Position numbers and translations under genes: made by a program. Source: Prauserella flavalba (lineage in GTDB: Bacteria; Actinomycetota; Actinomycetes; Mycobacteriales; Pseudonocardiaceae). From it: a stretch of DNA of 64,000 nt. Positions 46,427 through 52,918 of the stretch are shown here, piece after piece; positions within the stretch are counted from its first letter, which is position 1, and the number at the start of each line of letters is the position of its first letter. Location of the stretch: assembly GCF_003202235.1 (NCBI RefSeq), contig NZ_MASU01000005.1, positions 1,364,001 through 1,428,000 of the forward strand, given 5' to 3'. The notes beneath the pieces are model-generated. The model had not been told where the DNA came from. It searched no databases and saw only the letters and a program-made list of their open reading frames with translations.

Positions 46427-47473
46427 TCAAGGCGTGATGACGGCGCGGCCGACGAGTTCGCCCGCCGCGAGCCGGTGGTAGGCCTCGGGCGCCTCGGACA
46501 GGGGGAACGCCGTCGCCATGGCGCGCAGCAGCCCGCGCGAGGCCAGGTCGAGCACCTCGACCAGCTCGGGGCGGGTGCCCCAGTACGTCGTCTGCACCGA
46601 GAGCTCGTAGGGCAGCCCGAAGAACGACACGGGCAGCGTGCCGCCACCGAGGCCGATGATGGTCAGCTCCCCGAGCGTCCGTGCGCACGCCGCGCCGAGG
46701 GCGAGCGTCGCGTCGTTGCCCACGCAGTCGAGCACGACATCGGCACCCCGGCCGCCGGTGAAGTCCCGGATCACGTCCGCCCCCGCCTCGCCCGGCGCGA
46801 GCACCAGGTCGGCGCCCTCATCGGTGGCCAGCGCCCGGGCGTCGGCACGGGTGTCCACGGCAACGATCCGCGCGGCGGTGGTGGCCTTGAGGATCTGGAT
46901 CGCCAGGTGGCCCAGCCCACCGACGCCGATCACCACCGCGGTGGAGCCGGGCGGCAGCTTCGGCCACGCCCTGCGCACCGCGTGGTACGGCGTCAGCGCC
47001 GCATCGGTCAACGGTGCCGCGGTGACCGGGTCCAGGCCCGCCGGAAGCGGAACGAGATGACGGGCGGCAGGCACGAGCATGAACTCGGCCATGCCGCCGT
47101 CGAGCCCCAGCCCACCCCCGCCACCCGGGACGGGCGCCGCCGCCAGGTTCTCACAGTAGGTGTCGGCACCGGCCTGGCAGCGCGGGCACGTGCCGCACCC
47201 CCACGGCCCGTACACCGCGACGGCCTGGCCCGGCTCGAGGCCCGTCACTCCCTCACCGAGCGCGTGCACCCAGCCCGCGTTCTCGTGGCCGAGGGTGAAC
47301 GGAGGGCCCCACGGCAGCTGCCCGGCCGCGAAGTCGTGCATGAGGTGCAGGTCCGAGTGGCAGGCACCAGCCCCGCCGATGCGGACCACCACCTGCCCGT
47401 GCCCCGGCCGCGGCTCGGCCACGTCGACGAGCACCGGCTCGGACTTCCACTCCAGCAACCGGAGCGCCTTCAT
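46427..47473 (-). CDS. Zinc-dependent alcohol dehydrogenase (MDR family)
   Basis: 348 aa. Catalytic zinc ligands are in GACHSDLHL (C38, H39) and LGHENAG (H62, E63). The four structural-zinc cysteines are in [17 protein letters not shown]. The cofactor fold is at [14 protein letters not shown] with an Asp after the second strand (AVDTRAD), favouring NAD. It resembles hypoxia-linked alcohol dehydrogenases that dispose of NADH under oxygen limitation. It overlaps the universal stress protein gene stop by 4 bp and continues to the PEP synthase gene. Confidence 0.92.
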
Positions 47474-48369
47474 CGCTCTGCCCTCCCCCGCTGGTGGCGG
47501 ACGACGAGCACGGGGCACTGCGCGTGGTGGATCAGCGCCTGGCTGGTGGAACCGAGCAGCATTCCCCGGAAACCGCCCCGGCCCCGGCTGCCGACCACCA
47601 CGAGCGACGCTGTGCGCGAGCGTTCCAGCAGCTGGCGCCGCGGCCGGTCCAGCACCACGACCCGCTCCACGGTGACGTCAGGGTAGCGCTCCTGCCAGCC
47701 CGCGAGTCGTTCCGCGAGGAGACGCCGCTGGTCCTCCTCGTGACGGCCGGTCTCGAAGTACCCGCGGCCGGTGTCGTACTCGAGGTCCAGCCACGCGTTG
47801 ACGGCCACCAGCGGCACACCGCGCAAGGACGCCTCCCGGAACGCGACCGCGACGGCCTCCTCGCTTACCGGGCTGCCATCGATACCCACGATCACCGGGC
47901 CGTCCACCGCGGCACCACCGTTCTCACGGCGTCTGACCACAGTCACGGGGCACTCGGCGTGGCTCGTCACCGCCACCGCCGTGGATCCCAGCAGCATCCC
48001 GGTGAAGCCGCCGCCGCCCGTGGCGCCCAGCACGATCATGGCCGCCGACCGCGACTCCGCCACCAGCGCGGGCACCGAGTCGTTGTTCGGCATCGCCGTC
48101 TCCACGCGGACGGCGGACTCCGCGAGTTTGGCCTCGTGCTCGGCGGCGGAAAGCAACCGCTTCGCCTCGGCCTCGAAGATCTCGTAGACCTCGGGGCTCG
48201 GCGGCAGATCGGTGCCGTAGCCCTGCATGACGGTGTAGGCGTGCACGATCCGCAACGTCCGGTTGCGCCGCGCCGCCAGCGCGGCGGCCCACCGGATGGC
48301 ATCCATCGAGGCCTCCGAGCCGTCGGTGCCCACCACGATCGGGCCGTCCGAGATGTCCCCAGCAGTCAT
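47470..48369 (-). CDS. Tandem universal stress protein
   Basis: 299 aa with two UspA domains. Each has the nucleotide-binding Gly motif: GATGGGGFTGMLLGSTAVAV in the first and GSRGRGGFRGMLLGSTSQAL in the second, with VVGTDGSEAS and IVGIDGSPVS openings. The G-2x-G-9x-G-S/T pattern means ATP binding is likely. This is the Rv2623/Rv2005c-like type of tandem USP, associated with hypoxic dormancy in mycobacteria. It leads the operon USP-ADH-PEP synthase-VOC, behind an intergenic region with three DosR-like boxes. ATG has a ribosome site (GGAGAG) 5 nt upstream. Confidence 0.93.
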   Translation of the reverse strand: MTAGDISDGPIVVGTDGSEASMDAIRWAAALAARRNRTLRIVHAYTVMQGYGTDLPPSPEVYEIFEAEAKRLLSAAEHEAKLAESAVRVETAMPNNDSVPALVAESRSAAMIVLGATGGGGFTGMLLGSTAVAVTSHAECPVTVVRRRENGGAAVDGPVIVGIDGSPVSEEAVAVAFREASLRGVPLVAVNAWLDLEYDTGRGYFETGRHEEDQRRLLAERLAGWQERYPDVTVERVVVLDRPRRQLLERSRTASLVVVGSRGRGGFRGMLLGSTSQALIHHAQCPVLVVRHQRGRAER

Positions 48370-48425: not shown

Positions 48426-48439
48426 CGGCCGTTGGTCCC
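48426..48439 (-). promoter_or_regulatory. DosR/OsdR-like box 1 (for minus-strand USP operon)
   Basis: On the minus strand the site reads GGGACCAACGGCCG, matching the pattern G-K-G-A-C-C-N-N-C-G-G-C-C-C. It lies 57 bp before the tandem USP start, a suitable distance for activation. Confidence 0.5.
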
Positions 48440-48447
48440 CACCGCCG

Positions 48448-48461
48448 GGGACCTTCGGCCG
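48448..48461 (+). promoter_or_regulatory. DosR/OsdR-like box 2
   Basis: GGGACCTTCGGCCG sits in the same 210-bp divergent region and, with box 1, forms the larger inverted arrangement GGTCCCC-accgcc-GGGGACC. It may serve either direction. Confidence 0.5.
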
Positions 48462-48507: not shown

Positions 48508-48521
48508 GTGACTTACGGCCC
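48508..48521 (+). promoter_or_regulatory. DosR/OsdR-like box 3 (for plus-strand USP gene)
   Basis: GTGACTTACGGCCC closely resembles the mycobacterial DosR half pattern (GGGACTT). It lies 58 bp before the single-domain USP start, facing the plus-strand genes. Confidence 0.5.
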
Positions 48522-48579: not shown

Positions 48580-49038
48580 ATGGCGGGCAATGGCAGCACG
48601 GGTATGCGCAAGATCGTGGTCGGCGTCGACGGCTCGGCCGCCGCCGAGCACGCCCTGCGCTGGGCCGCGAGCGAAGCCGTCCTGCACGGCGACGAGATCG
48701 AGGCCATCGCCGTCCGCGAGCGCGACGAGTTGCTGCCCGGCACCTCGTTCAGCTTTCAGCCCCACGGCCGCCACCCGGTCACTGACGAGGAGGACACCCG
48801 GACGTACCTCCACGCCGCCGTCGCCACGGTGGCCCCCGTGGTGCCCGTCACCGAGACGGTGCTCGTCGGCGACCCAGCCACGGAACTGGTCAAGGCCTCG
48901 GCTGGCGCGGACATGCTCGTCGTCGCCAGCCATCGCTACGGCCCGTTCGCGGAGATCCTGCTGGGCAGCACCTCCGCCGACTGCGTTCGGCACGCGCAGT
49001 GCCCCGTCGTGGTCATCCCAACCAACCTGACCCGCTGA
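48580..49038 (+). CDS. Universal stress protein (single domain)
   Basis: 152 aa, one UspA domain. It starts with KIVVGVDGSAAAEHALRWAASEA and carries the nucleotide motif ASHRYGPFAEILLGSTSADCV, where the first Gly positions are altered (SHRYG for GxxG), so ATP binding is uncertain. It has GGGAGGA 5 nt upstream of the ATG. It faces away from the tandem USP gene, with three DosR-like boxes between. Probably first gene of a plus-strand operon with the two hypothetical genes that follow. Confidence 0.92.
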   Translation: MAGNGSTGMRKIVVGVDGSAAAEHALRWAASEAVLHGDEIEAIAVRERDELLPGTSFSFQPHGRHPVTDEEDTRTYLHAAVATVAPVVPVTETVLVGDPATELVKASAGADMLVVASHRYGPFAEILLGSTSADCVRHAQCPVVVIPTNLTR

Positions 49039-49060: not shown

Positions 49061-49693
49061 ATGACCGAGACCCGATCCACAGTAGACGGCAAGGCCGGCG
49101 AGCAAGCCCCGTCACTGGCCGACCGGTTCGCCCCGAAGCCCGCGACCACACAGGCACAGCACCTGATCGTGAACACCGACACGGCTAAGGCCTACCGCGC
49201 AGTGCGCGAACTCGACTTCACCGACATCCGCGGCCCGATCGTCGGTGCCGCGATGTGGGTCCGCGGCCTGCCCGAGCGCTGGCACAACCGCAAGCACGGC
49301 CCGCCCCGCGAGCCGACCCGCATGACGCTGGACGACATGGAACACGGCTCCGACTGGGTCATTCTCGGCGAGACCTCAGGCTCGGAGATCGCCGCCGGGG
49401 TGGCGGGCCGCTTCTGGAAGCCGGTGGTGCAGTGGCATCACGTCGACGCGAGCGAGTTCGCCGACTTCGACGAGCCCGGTTTCGGCAAGATCGTGATGTC
49501 GTTCTCGGTGCGCCCGTACGGAATCGGCTCGCTGGTCAGCTACGACATCCGCGTCTCCATCAACGACACGATGTCCACAGCGGCCTTCGCCGTCTACTGG
49601 AAGACGGTCTCACCGTTCGTCGCGGCGATCCAGCGCGCCACGCTCCGCACGATCAAGGCCAACGCCGAGCATCCCGCCCCGGAGAACGCGTGA
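49061..49693 (+). CDS. Conserved hypothetical protein (possible SRPBCC-like fold)
   Basis: 210 aa, soluble. After a flexible start (about 1-30), HLIVNTDTAKAYRAVRELDFTDI resembles the first helix and strand of SRPBCC-type lipid-binding folds (VDAPPERVWEAL pattern). Later strands contain WVILGETSGSEIAAGVAGRFW, KIVMSFSVRPYGIGSLVSYDIRV and TMSTAAFAVYWKTVSPFVAAIQ, typical of that fold's C-terminal long helix. No catalytic residues can be named. It lies 22 bp after the USP gene with a good ribosome site (GAGGAG) and overlaps the next gene by 4 bp (GTGA), so it is probably co-regulated with the dormancy set. Confidence 0.7.
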   Translation: MTETRSTVDGKAGEQAPSLADRFAPKPATTQAQHLIVNTDTAKAYRAVRELDFTDIRGPIVGAAMWVRGLPERWHNRKHGPPREPTRMTLDDMEHGSDWVILGETSGSEIAAGVAGRFWKPVVQWHHVDASEFADFDEPGFGKIVMSFSVRPYGIGSLVSYDIRVSINDTMSTAAFAVYWKTVSPFVAAIQRATLRTIKANAEHPAPENA

Positions 49694-50028
49694 ACGCCTG
49701 GAAGCTGACCGTCGGCTACACGGACCACGACGGCGTCGTCGAGACCACGGCGGTCCTCGGAGACGGCGCGCGAGCCTACCGGGGTACCGGCCGCAGCGGC
49801 CCCGCCCACGGCTGGCCCCACGTGCGCTCCGTCCAGCTCGTCGCCAACGACCTTGCCCTGGTCCACGCGCTGGCGGAGCTCACCGATGCGCTGGACGAAG
49901 CGGCCCAGTCCGCGGACGGGCCGGTCGCCGAGGGGGCGCATCAGCCGGGCCCACCGTGGGGCCGGCGCGGTCCGTCACCTGACCTCATGGGTGGTCCCGC
50001 CGGGCCGGCTCCTGCTCGGCCAGCGTGA
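49690..50028 (+). CDS. DUF1876 (Rv1738-like) small protein
   Basis: 112 aa. The first 75 residues (WKLTVGYTDHDGVVETTAVL, YRGTGRSGPAH, ANDLALVHALAELTDALDEAA) follow the DUF1876 layout: a W-x-V strand, acidic-hydrophobic strand, G-x-G-x-A-like turn and a final helix. Rv1738 of M. tuberculosis has this fold, belongs to the DosR regulon and has been compared with ribosome-hibernation factors. The C-terminal about 35 residues are Pro/Gly-rich and overlap the convergent ATPase gene by 44 bp, so they are probably not conserved. The GTG start is coupled to the upstream stop. Assignment rests on pattern matching, not on a search. Confidence 0.65.
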   Translation: MNAWKLTVGYTDHDGVVETTAVLGDGARAYRGTGRSGPAHGWPHVRSVQLVANDLALVHALAELTDALDEAAQSADGPVAEGAHQPGPPWGRRGPSPDLMGGPAGPAPARPA

Positions 50029-52273
50029 AGAACGCTTCCTCCTCCTGCGCGAAGTGCAGGGTCAGGATGGCGTCCAGGCCGTAGAGGGTCGCCCGCAGGT
50101 CGTCGACCTGATCGGGCTGAATGCCCTCCGGGGCCTCGCGCAGGTGCCTGCCGAGTCTCCGGCACAGGCGCTCGATCTCGGCGTGGCTCCGGCTCATCGT
50201 CACCGTTCCCTCGGGACCGCCGAGCACCCCGGTCAGCGCGGGGTAGAGCTCGGTCTCCTCCGACCGCTCGTGCGGCAGCAGCCGTTCGGCGAGGAGCCGG
50301 TGTGCGCGCCAGACCGCGGCGTCGGCGTCCGCTCCGGCCCCGTCGCCGAGCGCGTCGGCCGCCTGCCGCACCGCGGCACGCACCGGCAGCAATGTCTCGT
50401 GCTCGCCGGAGAACCGCCGCAGCAACGCGTCGGCGTCGTGGTTGCGCCTGCCCACCGGCGTGCGCAGCACCCGCAGCGCGTTGGCAATGACGGCGAGGTC
50501 GATGCCTTCCTGCACCACGGCCCCCGCGACCGGGAGCAGCCAGCCCGCGGCGGCCGCGAGCATCGCCACCACCGACAGCGCCGTGCCAGCGACCGCGCTC
50601 TGGAGTGCGACGCGCCGGGTACGTCTCGCCACCTCCACCCCGTCGGCGAGCCGGTCGATCCGGTCGTCCACGATCACCGCGTCCGCGGCCTGAACCGCCG
50701 CCGTCGAACCACGCGAGCCCAGTGCGATGCCGATGTCGGCCGCGGCCAGCGCCGGCGCGTCGTTGACGCCGTCGCCGACCATCACGGTGACGCCCCGTCG
50801 CCGTTCGGCCTCGACGCGGGCGATCTTGTCCGCCGGGCTCGCCTTCGCCTGCACCTCGTCGATGCCGAGCAGGCCGGCGACCTCCTGTGCGTTGTCGACC
50901 CGGTCGCCGGTGAGCAGGACCACGTGGCCGAGGCCGGTCGCGCGCAGGCGCCGCATCGTGCGCGCGGCGTCGATCCGGATGCGGTCGCGGATCAGGATCG
51001 CCGCGGCCAGTTCGCCGTCCACCTCCACCCACACGACCGTCGCCAGGTCGAGCCTGCCCCGGCGGGCCGCGGCCGTGGCCCATCCGGGCAGGACCACGCC
51101 GTCGTCGAGCCTGCCGACGCGAACCCGATGACCGTCGGTGACGCCCGCCGCGCCGCGGCCCGGCTCCTCGGTGACGTCCTCGGCGGGCGCGGGCCCGGTA
51201 CCGGAGCGGGCGGCGGCCCGCAGCACGGCGCTCGCCAGCACGTGCGGCGAGTACTGCTCCACACCCGCGGCGAGCCGCAGCACACCCTCGGAGGTGAAGC
51301 CCGCCGCGCACACCACGTCGGTCACCTCGGGACGTCCCGCGGTGACTGTGCCGGTCTTGTCCATCACGAGCGACCGCGCGTGGCCGAGCAGCTCCAGTGC
51401 GGCGCCATCCTTGACGACGACACCGGCCCGCGACATGCGGGACATGCCACCGGTCACGGCGATCGGCACGGCGAGCAGCAGCGGGCAGGGGGTGGCCGTG
51501 ACCAGCACGGCCACCGCCCGGACCGCCTCCCCCGTCACCGCCCACGCGCCTGCCGCGAGCGCCACCGCGACGGGCAGGAACCAAACGGCGACGCGGTCGG
51601 CCAGCCGCGCGACCGGTGCCGCGGCGGCCGCGGCCTGCTCCGCGAGCCGGACCACGCCGGCATACGTGCTGTCGTCGGCCGTCCGCGCCGCCCGGAGATC
51701 GAGTACCGCCCCGGCGTTGACCACGCCGCTGCGGACCGGCTCCCCGGCCGCGCGGTTCACCGGTTCCGGCTCGCCGATGAGCGCCGACTCGTCGATCACG
51801 GCCTCGCCCAGCACGGTGCCGTCCACCGGCACGACCTCGCCCGGCAGCACCACGACGACGTCCCCCGGGCACACGTGGTCCACCGGCACGGTCTCGACCT
51901 GTTCGCCTGCCCGCACGTGCGCCTGGCGGGGCGCCCGCTCCAGCAGGGCGGACAGGTCTCTGGCCGCCCTGCGGCCCGCGACCGCCTCCAGCACCCGGCC
52001 GGTCGCGACCATGAGGGCCACCACCGCGCCGGCCAGGAACTCACCGAGCGCGAGCGTGCCGCCCAGTGCGAGCACGGCGAGCAGGTCGGCACCGTAGCGG
52101 CGTCGCCGCAGCTGGGCGACCACCCAGCCGAGCGCGGGCACCAGCGTCACCGCCGTCACGGCCGCCCACAGCGCCCGGGCGAGCCCGGGTTCGAACGGCC
52201 ACGCGAGCCCACCGGCCGCCAGCCCCGCGCCGACACCCGCGAGCAGCAGTACCTCGCGTGACCTCCCCCGCAT
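49985..52273 (-). CDS. P1-type ATPase fused to C-terminal hemerythrin-like domain
   Basis: 762 aa. Residues 1-605 form a heavy-metal-type P-ATPase: actuator motif near ALIGEPEPV (TGES-like), intramembrane T261-P-C263-P, phosphorylation site DKTGTVTAG (D305) and hinge GDGVNDAPALAAADIG (500-516). There is no N-terminal HMA domain. Residues 620-755 form a helical HHE domain with His and acidic residues at H625, H658, H668, E672-673, H697, H740 and E744-745, the hemerythrin-type di-iron spacing. In the dormancy island the domain could sense O2, iron or redox state and gate transport. The TPC motif is neither CPC (copper) nor SPC (zinc/cobalt), so the ion is unknown. Encoded after hsp20 with a strong hairpin between. 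Confidence 0.9.
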   Translation of the reverse strand: MRGRSREVLLLAGVGAGLAAGGLAWPFEPGLARALWAAVTAVTLVPALGWVVAQLRRRRYGADLLAVLALGGTLALGEFLAGAVVALMVATGRVLEAVAGRRAARDLSALLERAPRQAHVRAGEQVETVPVDHVCPGDVVVVLPGEVVPVDGTVLGEAVIDESALIGEPEPVNRAAGEPVRSGVVNAGAVLDLRAARTADDSTYAGVVRLAEQAAAAAAPVARLADRVAVWFLPVAVALAAGAWAVTGEAVRAVAVLVTATPCPLLLAVPIAVTGGMSRMSRAGVVVKDGAALELLGHARSLVMDKTGTVTAGRPEVTDVVCAAGFTSEGVLRLAAGVEQYSPHVLASAVLRAAARSGTGPAPAEDVTEEPGRGAAGVTDGHRVRVGRLDDGVVLPGWATAAARRGRLDLATVVWVEVDGELAAAILIRDRIRIDAARTMRRLRATGLGHVVLLTGDRVDNAQEVAGLLGIDEVQAKASPADKIARVEAERRRGVTVMVGDGVNDAPALAAADIGIALGSRGSTAAVQAADAVIVDDRIDRLADGVEVARRTRRVALQSAVAGTALSVVAMLAAAAGWLLPVAGAVVQEGIDLAVIANALRVLRTPVGRRNHDADALLRRFSGEHETLLPVRAAVRQAADALGDGAGADADAAVWRAHRLLAERLLPHERSEETELYPALTGVLGGPEGTVTMSRSHAEIERLCRRLGRHLREAPEGIQPDQVDDLRATLYGLDAILTLHFAQEEEAFFTLAEQEPARRDHP

Positions 52274-52350: not shown

Positions 52351-52755
52351 CTACTTGCCCGCCACCGGAATCTGGCGCGCCTCCCCGGTCTTCTCGATCG
52401 GGATCGTCACCTCGAGGATCCCCTTGTCGTAGCTGGCCGCGATCTTGTCGGCGTCCGCGCCAGCGGGCAGGCGGACCGTGCGCGCGAACGAGCCGTAGTG
52501 GAACTCACTCCGGCCCTTCTCCTTCTTCTCCTCGCTGCGCTGCGCAGTGATCGACAGCTCGTCCTTCTCCACCGTGATGGTGATGTCGTGCTCGGGGTCC
52601 AGACCGGGCAGCTCGGCCCGCACCACGTACTTGTCCTCGGTGAGGTAGTCCTCCAGCCGCATCCACTGCCGCTCGGAGAGCGACCCGAACGGGAACTCCG
52701 ACTCGAGCCAGCGGAACATGTCGGGCAGGGAACCACGCGGAACCAGCGACGTCAT
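52351..52755 (-). CDS. Small heat-shock protein, Hsp20/alpha-crystallin
   Basis: 134 aa. The alpha-crystallin domain (about 40-130) has YVVRAELPGLDPEHDITITVEKDELSI, FARTVRLPAGADADKIAASYDKGILEVTIP, ending with the A-x-x-x-n-G-I-L sequence. It is an ATP-independent holdase that forms oligomers. HspX (Rv2031c) of M. tuberculosis is the classic DosR target of this family, and this gene sits in the equivalent context. AGAGG lies 6 nt before the ATG at 52755; the longer upstream frame has no ribosome site. It is followed by the ATPase-hemerythrin gene. Confidence 0.95.
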   Translation of the reverse strand: MTSLVPRGSLPDMFRWLESEFPFGSLSERQWMRLEDYLTEDKYVVRAELPGLDPEHDITITVEKDELSITAQRSEEKKEKGRSEFHYGSFARTVRLPAGADADKIAASYDKGILEVTIPIEKTGEARQIPVAGK

Positions 52756-52843
52756 GGCAACCTCTTTCCAGTCGGTTTTCGTGCCGCCTCCAGGCAACGC
52801 TTACCCACCGGGTCCTGTGCAGAGTCTCCTTGCTCTGTTGGGA

Positions 52844-52869: not shown

Positions 52870-52883
52870 GTGACCCTCGGCCC
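52870..52883. promoter_or_regulatory. DosR/OsdR-like box 5
   Basis: GTGACCCTCGGCCC is one of the best matches to the shared box and lies 35 bp before the GNAT start. It could also serve hsp20 in the other direction. Confidence 0.5.
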
Positions 52884-52918
52884 TTTCCGGAGCGCACCAG
52901 CGGCGGTACCAAGGTCGC

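Follow-up and report, generated by a model that had tools for sequence, protein, structure and literature searches.

A predicted P1B-5 metal ATPase with a C-terminal hemerythrin-like domain in a putative low-oxygen gene island of Prauserella flavalba

What does a hemerythrin-like domain do for the metal pump to which it is fused? This is the central question for the P1B-5 class of P-type ATPases, and it is raised by a 762-residue protein encoded in a 64,000-nucleotide stretch of the Prauserella flavalba genome (RefSeq assembly GCF_003202235.1, contig NZ_MASU01000005.1, positions 1,364,001 to 1,428,000; the whole stretch is called the window). The reading favored here from sequence comparison, with a probability of roughly 0.85, is that the gene, part of a low-oxygen gene island, encodes a P1B-5 pump whose hemerythrin-like domain binds metal. 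That the domain gates the pump is a separate claim, for which the odds are about even. The fusion itself is not new, because its architecture is already known. New is the evidence placing a P1B-5 pump in an oxygen-starvation (dormancy-type) gene island, and the gain consists of a corrected set of predicted metal ligands and a supported, though predicted, low-oxygen regulon assignment.

The ATPase core and its class

The initial annotation had described a single reading frame that joins a P1-type ATPase to a hemerythrin-like domain, and profile searches bear this out. In Pfam, the protein matches E1-E2_ATPase (the actuator, 2e-38), Hydrolase (the phosphorylation/nucleotide part, 1.8e-25) and, in its C-terminal part, the hemerythrin family PF01814. 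The ATPase core belongs to the heavy-metal P1B type according to NCBIfam, with both TIGR01525 (6.7e-145) and TIGR01512 (2.9e-135) above the cut-off. The phosphorylation motif at residue 305, the hinge motif at residue 500 and the TPC variant were all read as that annotation had claimed, the last as TPCP at residues 261-264. TPC(P) in membrane helix M4 and QExxD in the last membrane helix are the class motifs of P1B-5 ATPases, and both are found in the window protein (Table 1). A model of the whole protein reached a predicted local distance difference test (pLDDT) score of 87.3, and its nearest structures by Foldseek were solved P1B ATPases for Cu, Zn and Cd.

Class membership was assessed with 83 rows, comprising the best 80 of 487 loci from a scan of genome contigs, a Sinorhizobium plasmid copy (L084), the pSymA copy of Sinorhizobium meliloti 1021 (L085) and the window protein. 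A TPC motif was read in 49 rows, and a fragment starting past the motif (L062) was added by hand because it bears the hemerythrin part, resulting in 50 TPC-class rows. The window protein shares the P1B core, DKTGT and GDGxNDAP with the P1B-1 to P1B-4 ATPases (CopA, ZntA, CtpD). In contrast to it, the 33 P1B rows outside the TPC class have CPC (30 rows) or no motif that was read (3 rows), and their matches to the window protein stop at residue 628 or earlier, before most of the hemerythrin part. An unrooted tree of 82 rows was built by a quick method with the hemerythrin part excluded and L062 dropped as too short. A branch with a Shimodaira-Hasegawa-like approximate likelihood ratio (SH-aLRT) support of 100 separates the 49 TPC rows, L085 included, from the others, in a tree that the program flags for long branches and uneven composition. 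The window protein shares a clade with the S. meliloti pSymA protein, to which it is 44% identical over 763 columns. The pSymA open reading frame (ORF) is probably Nia (SMa1163), the matching record being unannotated.

According to the available text of a 2022 review (PMC9388753), some P1B-5 members have a hemerythrin-like domain, and ATPases with such a C-terminal domain have been characterized from Acidothermus cellulolyticus by Traverso (2010) and, as Nia of S. meliloti, by Zielazinski (2013). By its description there, the A. cellulolyticus enzyme (UniProt A0LQU2) resembles the window protein in having at least six transmembrane helices, an actuator, an ATP-binding part and a C-terminal hemerythrin-like domain. 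The statement of the initial annotation that no characterized example was known is thus superseded (PMC9388753, PMC4932525), and the window fusion belongs to an already characterized family. The substrates reported for Nia are Ni2+ and Fe2+, both of which also induce nia (PMC4932525, as far as its text is accessible). Elsewhere, Nia is grouped with iron-exporting P-type ATPases, though under P1B4 (PMC7762939, in the part consulted). Two further papers were set aside: PMC11841059, in its accessible part, deals not with this fusion but with a copper-type pump, a cbb3 oxidase and a hemerythrin that is a single-domain protein of its own, and PMC4965479 names Nia in its reference list only.

The hemerythrin-like domain and its predicted metal site

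The PF01814 match covers residues 618-751 (2.4e-12) and scores 47.9 bits, well over the cut-off of 25.3. Pfam detects the domain in all 33 aligned tails that were scanned (the window and 32 relatives), and it is present in 49 of the 50 TPC-class rows, the window included; the single row that lacks it is L048, from a Rhizobiales contig. Over these 49 domains the ligand pattern is H-Hxxx[E/D]-HxE-HxxxE. The ligand list of the initial annotation is correct for H625, H668, H697, H740 and E744, which are invariant (Table 1). Its H658 was rejected, being H in just 17 of the 49 domains, and E672 and E699 had been overlooked. Position 745 is E in 42 domains, D in five, Q in one and L in one. The C-terminal cytoplasmic bundle would accordingly be expected to carry a di-iron site with H625, H668, E672, H697, E699, H740 and E744.

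In the text available from the 2022 review (PMC9388753), the P1B-5 ligand motif is given as H-HxxxE-HxE-HxxxxD. The window protein matches H-HxxxE-HxE, but its final acid is E744 (HxxxE) or E745 (HxxxxE) and not D. The pSymA protein is like the window protein in TPC, QExxD, the C-terminal hemerythrin-like domain and the ligand pattern, and unlike it in having D at position 672 and L at position 745. The final D of the published motif fails there too, because position 745 is L, while the glutamate at 744 is common to all 49 domains.

Modeled alone from 33 aligned sequences, the domain forms four helical segments (helices 6-22/25-38, 44-77, 84-109 and 116-155), of which the first has a break, with a pLDDT of 93.6. 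The model agrees with a helical bundle. Neither of the results named in the initial annotation as refuting its reading, a failed profile search or a predicted structure lacking the bundle, came about. A Foldseek search of the model against the Protein Data Bank (PDB) gave no match at E ≤ 0.001. The structure 3cax, which we take to be a hemerythrin-type bundle, ranked second with a template modeling score (TM-score) of 0.68, and the designed bundle 8tn1 scored 0.71. Because designed bundles score equally, the fold search speaks for a four-helix bundle without naming the hemerythrin family. The hemerythrin assignment therefore rests on the profile match and the ligands, not on the fold search. 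No relative came up when PDB sequences were searched with the hemerythrin part, the one row having an E value of 0.33. Across the 33 aligned rows, identity in the domain taken by itself drops to 35%, and the ligands are still kept in 49 of 49 domains, which argues for a working metal site, though not by itself for gating.

Two more hemerythrin-domain matches were observed in the same genome, at C13:200310-200666 (E 5.7e-19, in a 239-residue frame) and at C33:7764-8168 (E 3.3e-18, in a 344-residue frame).

Promoter boxes and surrounding genes

The probable hypoxia regulon proposed in the initial annotation gains support, as a prediction, from the placement of the best DosR/OsdR-like boxes, from their enrichment at related loci and from the neighbors in the island. 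All four window sites scoring at least 12 of 13 lie in two promoters of the gene cluster, three between divergent universal stress protein (USP) genes and one upstream of hsp20. None of 300 column-permuted matrices places four window sites in these two promoters (mean 0.02), a result that is partly circular, because the matrix was written after the four-base-spacer sites had been seen. There is no excess in site number in the window, with 4 sites scoring at least 12 where 20 block shuffles average 6.1, and 25 scoring at least 11 where the average is 74.6. An earlier search of the window with a five-base spacer found 5 sites against 8.5 expected and 7 against 7.6 expected. With a four-base spacer and at most two mismatches, the 51 window sites were fewer than in shuffles (mean 100). 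As the number of sites is not unusual, the signal of the window is the position of the best ones. One box of the USP promoter (48448..48461) has the 13 bases GGGACCTTCGGCC in common with a predicted OsdR site, that of SCO0216 of S. coelicolor, in the accessible text of PMC5069765.

The matrix was frozen and applied to 44 related loci (L004-L049 minus L017, which is cut short, and L048, which has no hemerythrin part). The regions tested were the 300 nucleotides upstream of the ATPase and of homologues of USP, Hsp20, the phosphoenolpyruvate (PEP) enzyme, FtsH and similar proteins. These regions make up 3.9% of the bases and contain 25 of the 104 sites; permuted matrices average 3.4, and 0 of 300 reach 25. 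Sixteen of the 25 sites are upstream of the ATPase, within 1.8% of the bases (permuted average 1.6, 0 of 300 reaching 16), at loci that are related and thus not independent. The pSymA copy has one DosR/OsdR-like site scoring 12 upstream.

Of the 20 near-consensus sites of the genome, five fall in a 69-kb stretch running outward from the window's USP promoter; a reversed-pattern control has 11 sites in the genome. In the next 60 kb (L106-L108, C5:1428001-1488000 of the same genome), 20 of 39 gene-like frames were scanned. Two GAF-HisKA_3-HATPase sensor kinases were found, as well as two Usp proteins, a WS/DGAT, a nitroreductase, a phosphoketolase, a GAPDH, a cation-efflux protein, two further P-type ATPases with cation-ATPase domains, and others. 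Eight sites in these 60 kb score at least 12, five of them intergenic by rough gene calls and three not.

The OsdR (Streptomyces coelicolor) and DosR-DevR (mycobacteria) regulons resemble the island in having Usp proteins, WS/DGAT, a nitroreductase, sensor kinases with GAF domains and the box core GGGACCTTCGGCC, to which a weak Rv2632c-like neighbor can be added; for the mycobacterial DosR regulon, family membership is partly a matter of general knowledge. The P-type ATPase of that regulon is presumably CtpF. By the abstracts consulted, CtpF is a calcium pump. Unlike the island, the OsdR regulon is described in the main text of its paper (PMC5069765), so far as accessible, without any word beginning "ATPase". 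By analogy, based partly on that paper and partly on general knowledge, the gene company in the 60 kb is that of a DosR/OsdR dormancy regulon. A literature search found no publication joining a P-type ATPase, hemerythrin and the DosR regulon among the best 15 of 46 matches, the combination of pump and OsdR having been left out of the search and most subscription papers lying outside it; that a P1B-5 pump has not been linked in print to a DosR/OsdR-type regulon is thus weakly supported.

Closer to the gene, hsp20 and the ATPase gene form a probable operon (Table 1). Homologues of the 210-residue protein occur near USP genes in L007, L047, L009 and L011 (31-65% identity), and the Rv2632c-like family to which the small convergent gene is weakly similar is one known from mycobacteria. 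Further genes around the ATPase encode a PEP-utilizing enzyme, an alcohol dehydrogenase, a GNAT protein and an FtsH-like protease.

Table 1. Coordinates in the window of the ATPase gene, its motifs and proposed ligands, neighboring genes and DosR/OsdR-like boxes
Feature	Position	Strand	Remarks
P1B-5-type metal ATPase with C-terminal hemerythrin-like domain	49985..52273	(-)	762 aa, ATG start, single open frame
TPC motif, residues 261-263, membrane helix M4	51485..51493	(-)	invariant in 49/49 rows covering TPC
DKTGT phosphorylation motif, residues 305-309	51347..51361	(-)	
GDGVNDAP hinge motif, residues 500-507	50753..50776	(-)	
QEGID, residues 588-592, last membrane helix	50498..50512	(-)	Q588, E589, D592 in 50/50 rows
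Hemerythrin-like helical bundle, residues 613-753	50015..50437	(-)	PF01814 and models
H625, proposed Fe ligand	50399..50401	(-)	H in 49/49
H668xxxE672, proposed Fe ligands	50258..50272	(-)	H668 49/49; position 672 E in 46, D in 3
H697xE699, proposed Fe ligands (HxE)	50177..50185	(-)	49/49 each; spacing as reported for P1B-5
H740xxxE744, proposed Fe ligands	50042..50056	(-)	49/49 each
Hsp20 gene	52351..52797	(-)	directly upstream of ATPase, 77-nt gap
Universal stress protein	47470..48369	(-)	two Usp stretches
Universal stress protein	48580..49038	(+)	one Usp stretch
210-aa protein	49061-49693	(+)	no Pfam match at 0.001
Small protein	49693-49941	(+)	weak Rv2632c-like match 9.4e-4, below Pfam cut-off; convergent with ATPase gene
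DosR/OsdR-like box upstream of hsp20	52870..52883	(+)	score 11/13
DosR/OsdR-like box upstream of hsp20	52905..52918	(-)	score 12/13
DosR/OsdR-like box, divergent USP promoter	48426..48439	(-)	score 12/13
DosR/OsdR-like box, divergent USP promoter	48448..48461	(+)	score 12/13; GGGACCTTCGGCCG
DosR/OsdR-like box, divergent USP promoter	48508..48521	(+)	score 12/13

Possible roles of the domain

The protein would be an ATP-driven membrane pump, most likely exporting Fe2+ and/or Ni2+, the substrates reported for Nia, and would be made together with Hsp20 from a low-oxygen promoter of the DosR/OsdR type. The TPC and QExxD motifs would form the metal path through the membrane. The hemerythrin-like bundle would probably signal iron and O2/redox state to the pump, and a rise in cytoplasmic Fe2+ or a fall in O2 would change pump turnover. 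A wider proposal, which we consider unlikely as it stands, is that the actinobacterial DosR/OsdR-type regulon has its own O2/iron-gated metal exporter. GAF kinases would induce it in low oxygen and the di-iron domain would tune it again, iron released in hypoxia would be expelled only without O2, and proteobacterial members would use other low-oxygen regulators.

Several points weigh against the reading of the locus as a P1B-5 pump of a low-oxygen island. The metal and the gating cannot be read from sequence. Besides postdating the window sites, the matrix was composed with an eye to an M. tuberculosis consensus. Only 15 of the 44 related loci have a site from 400 nucleotides upstream to 60 nucleotides downstream of the ATPase start, as does one of six further actinobacterial plasmid copies, and three of 16 full-score (13) sites are inside the tested regions. 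Deletion of nia in S. meliloti CCNWSX0020 left the tolerance to Cu, Zn, Cd, Pb and Ni unchanged (PMC4932525, in the text at hand). Finally, a TPC-class pump can do without the domain, because it is absent from L048 and from two plasmid pumps that are too short for it by annotated coordinates, L104 of Agrobacterium (590 aa) and L105 of Paracoccus (618 aa), its presence in plasmid copies being judged from match ends and gene lengths.

These pumps lacking the domain also speak for the strongest alternative, which comes somewhat short of an even chance, that the domain is an iron/O2 store, a buffer or an assembly tether and that the pump is unregulated and constitutive once made. The L104 pump is found in a similar setting, adjoining USP, Hsp20 and phosphoketolase genes. 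The 2022 review (PMC9388753), in its accessible part, likewise leaves the role of the domain unclear, with O2/redox sensing or iron as candidates. The ligands kept at 35% identity count against such a passive role insofar as they indicate a working metal site.

More tentatively, the domain may sense cytoplasmic iron rather than O2 and open the pump at high iron, in the manner of FBXL5, an iron-responsive hemerythrin. Consistent with this are the non-canonical ligand set H-HxxxE-HxE and the ferritin-family and VIT-family genes beside a P1B-5-like pump on a Mycolicibacterium aubagnense plasmid (L089), which point to iron as the substrate, together with the induction of nia by Fe2+ and Ni2+ and the reported transport of Fe2+ by Nia mentioned above (PMC4932525). 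On the other hand, the low-oxygen setting fits an O2 signal equally well, and iron and O2 sensing can be coupled.

A chance composition or spurious fusion of ORFs is extremely improbable, for although the window has a guanine plus cytosine content of 69-75% in 4-kb steps and long ORFs in other frames overlap the ATPase gene, it is rejected by the PF01814 match above the curated cut-off, the recurrence of the fusion in 49 of 50 TPC-class rows and the confident model of the domain.

For the preferred reading, a P1B-5 pump in a low-oxygen island, the predicted promoter and the stress-protein partner provide a testable setting, in which hypoxia should induce the pump and O2 or iron should alter its activity. 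Which residues to mutate follows from the ligand list as corrected over 49 sequences, and the natural members without the domain (L104, L105 and L048) can serve as controls for its role.

A match of more than 600 bits, taken as P1B-5 class, was found in 13 of 60 genomes (the own genome, which counts among the 13, and 59 relatives) and in none of three genomes of the same genus. The plasmid scan gave 220 records with E ≤ 1e-30, 60 of them among the matches listed. In six of the 15 annotated loci among 22 plasmid loci examined, the pump has a USP gene at a distance of about 3 kb or less. FNR/FixK-like boxes with at least seven of eight bases number 10 in about 420 bases at 16 proteobacterial plasmid copies (L048 excluded), against about 4.2 expected from the background of the same loci, and exact boxes number 4 against about 1.3, an excess that is suggestive only. 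The pump on a Rhizobium plasmid (L098) has an exact box upstream and is near hemN and alcohol dehydrogenase genes, and one plasmid copy is near hypE. The genes near the pump on the Sinorhizobium plasmid (L084) include two of the U32 family and one SCP2 gene, presumably an oxygen-independent ubiquinone set.

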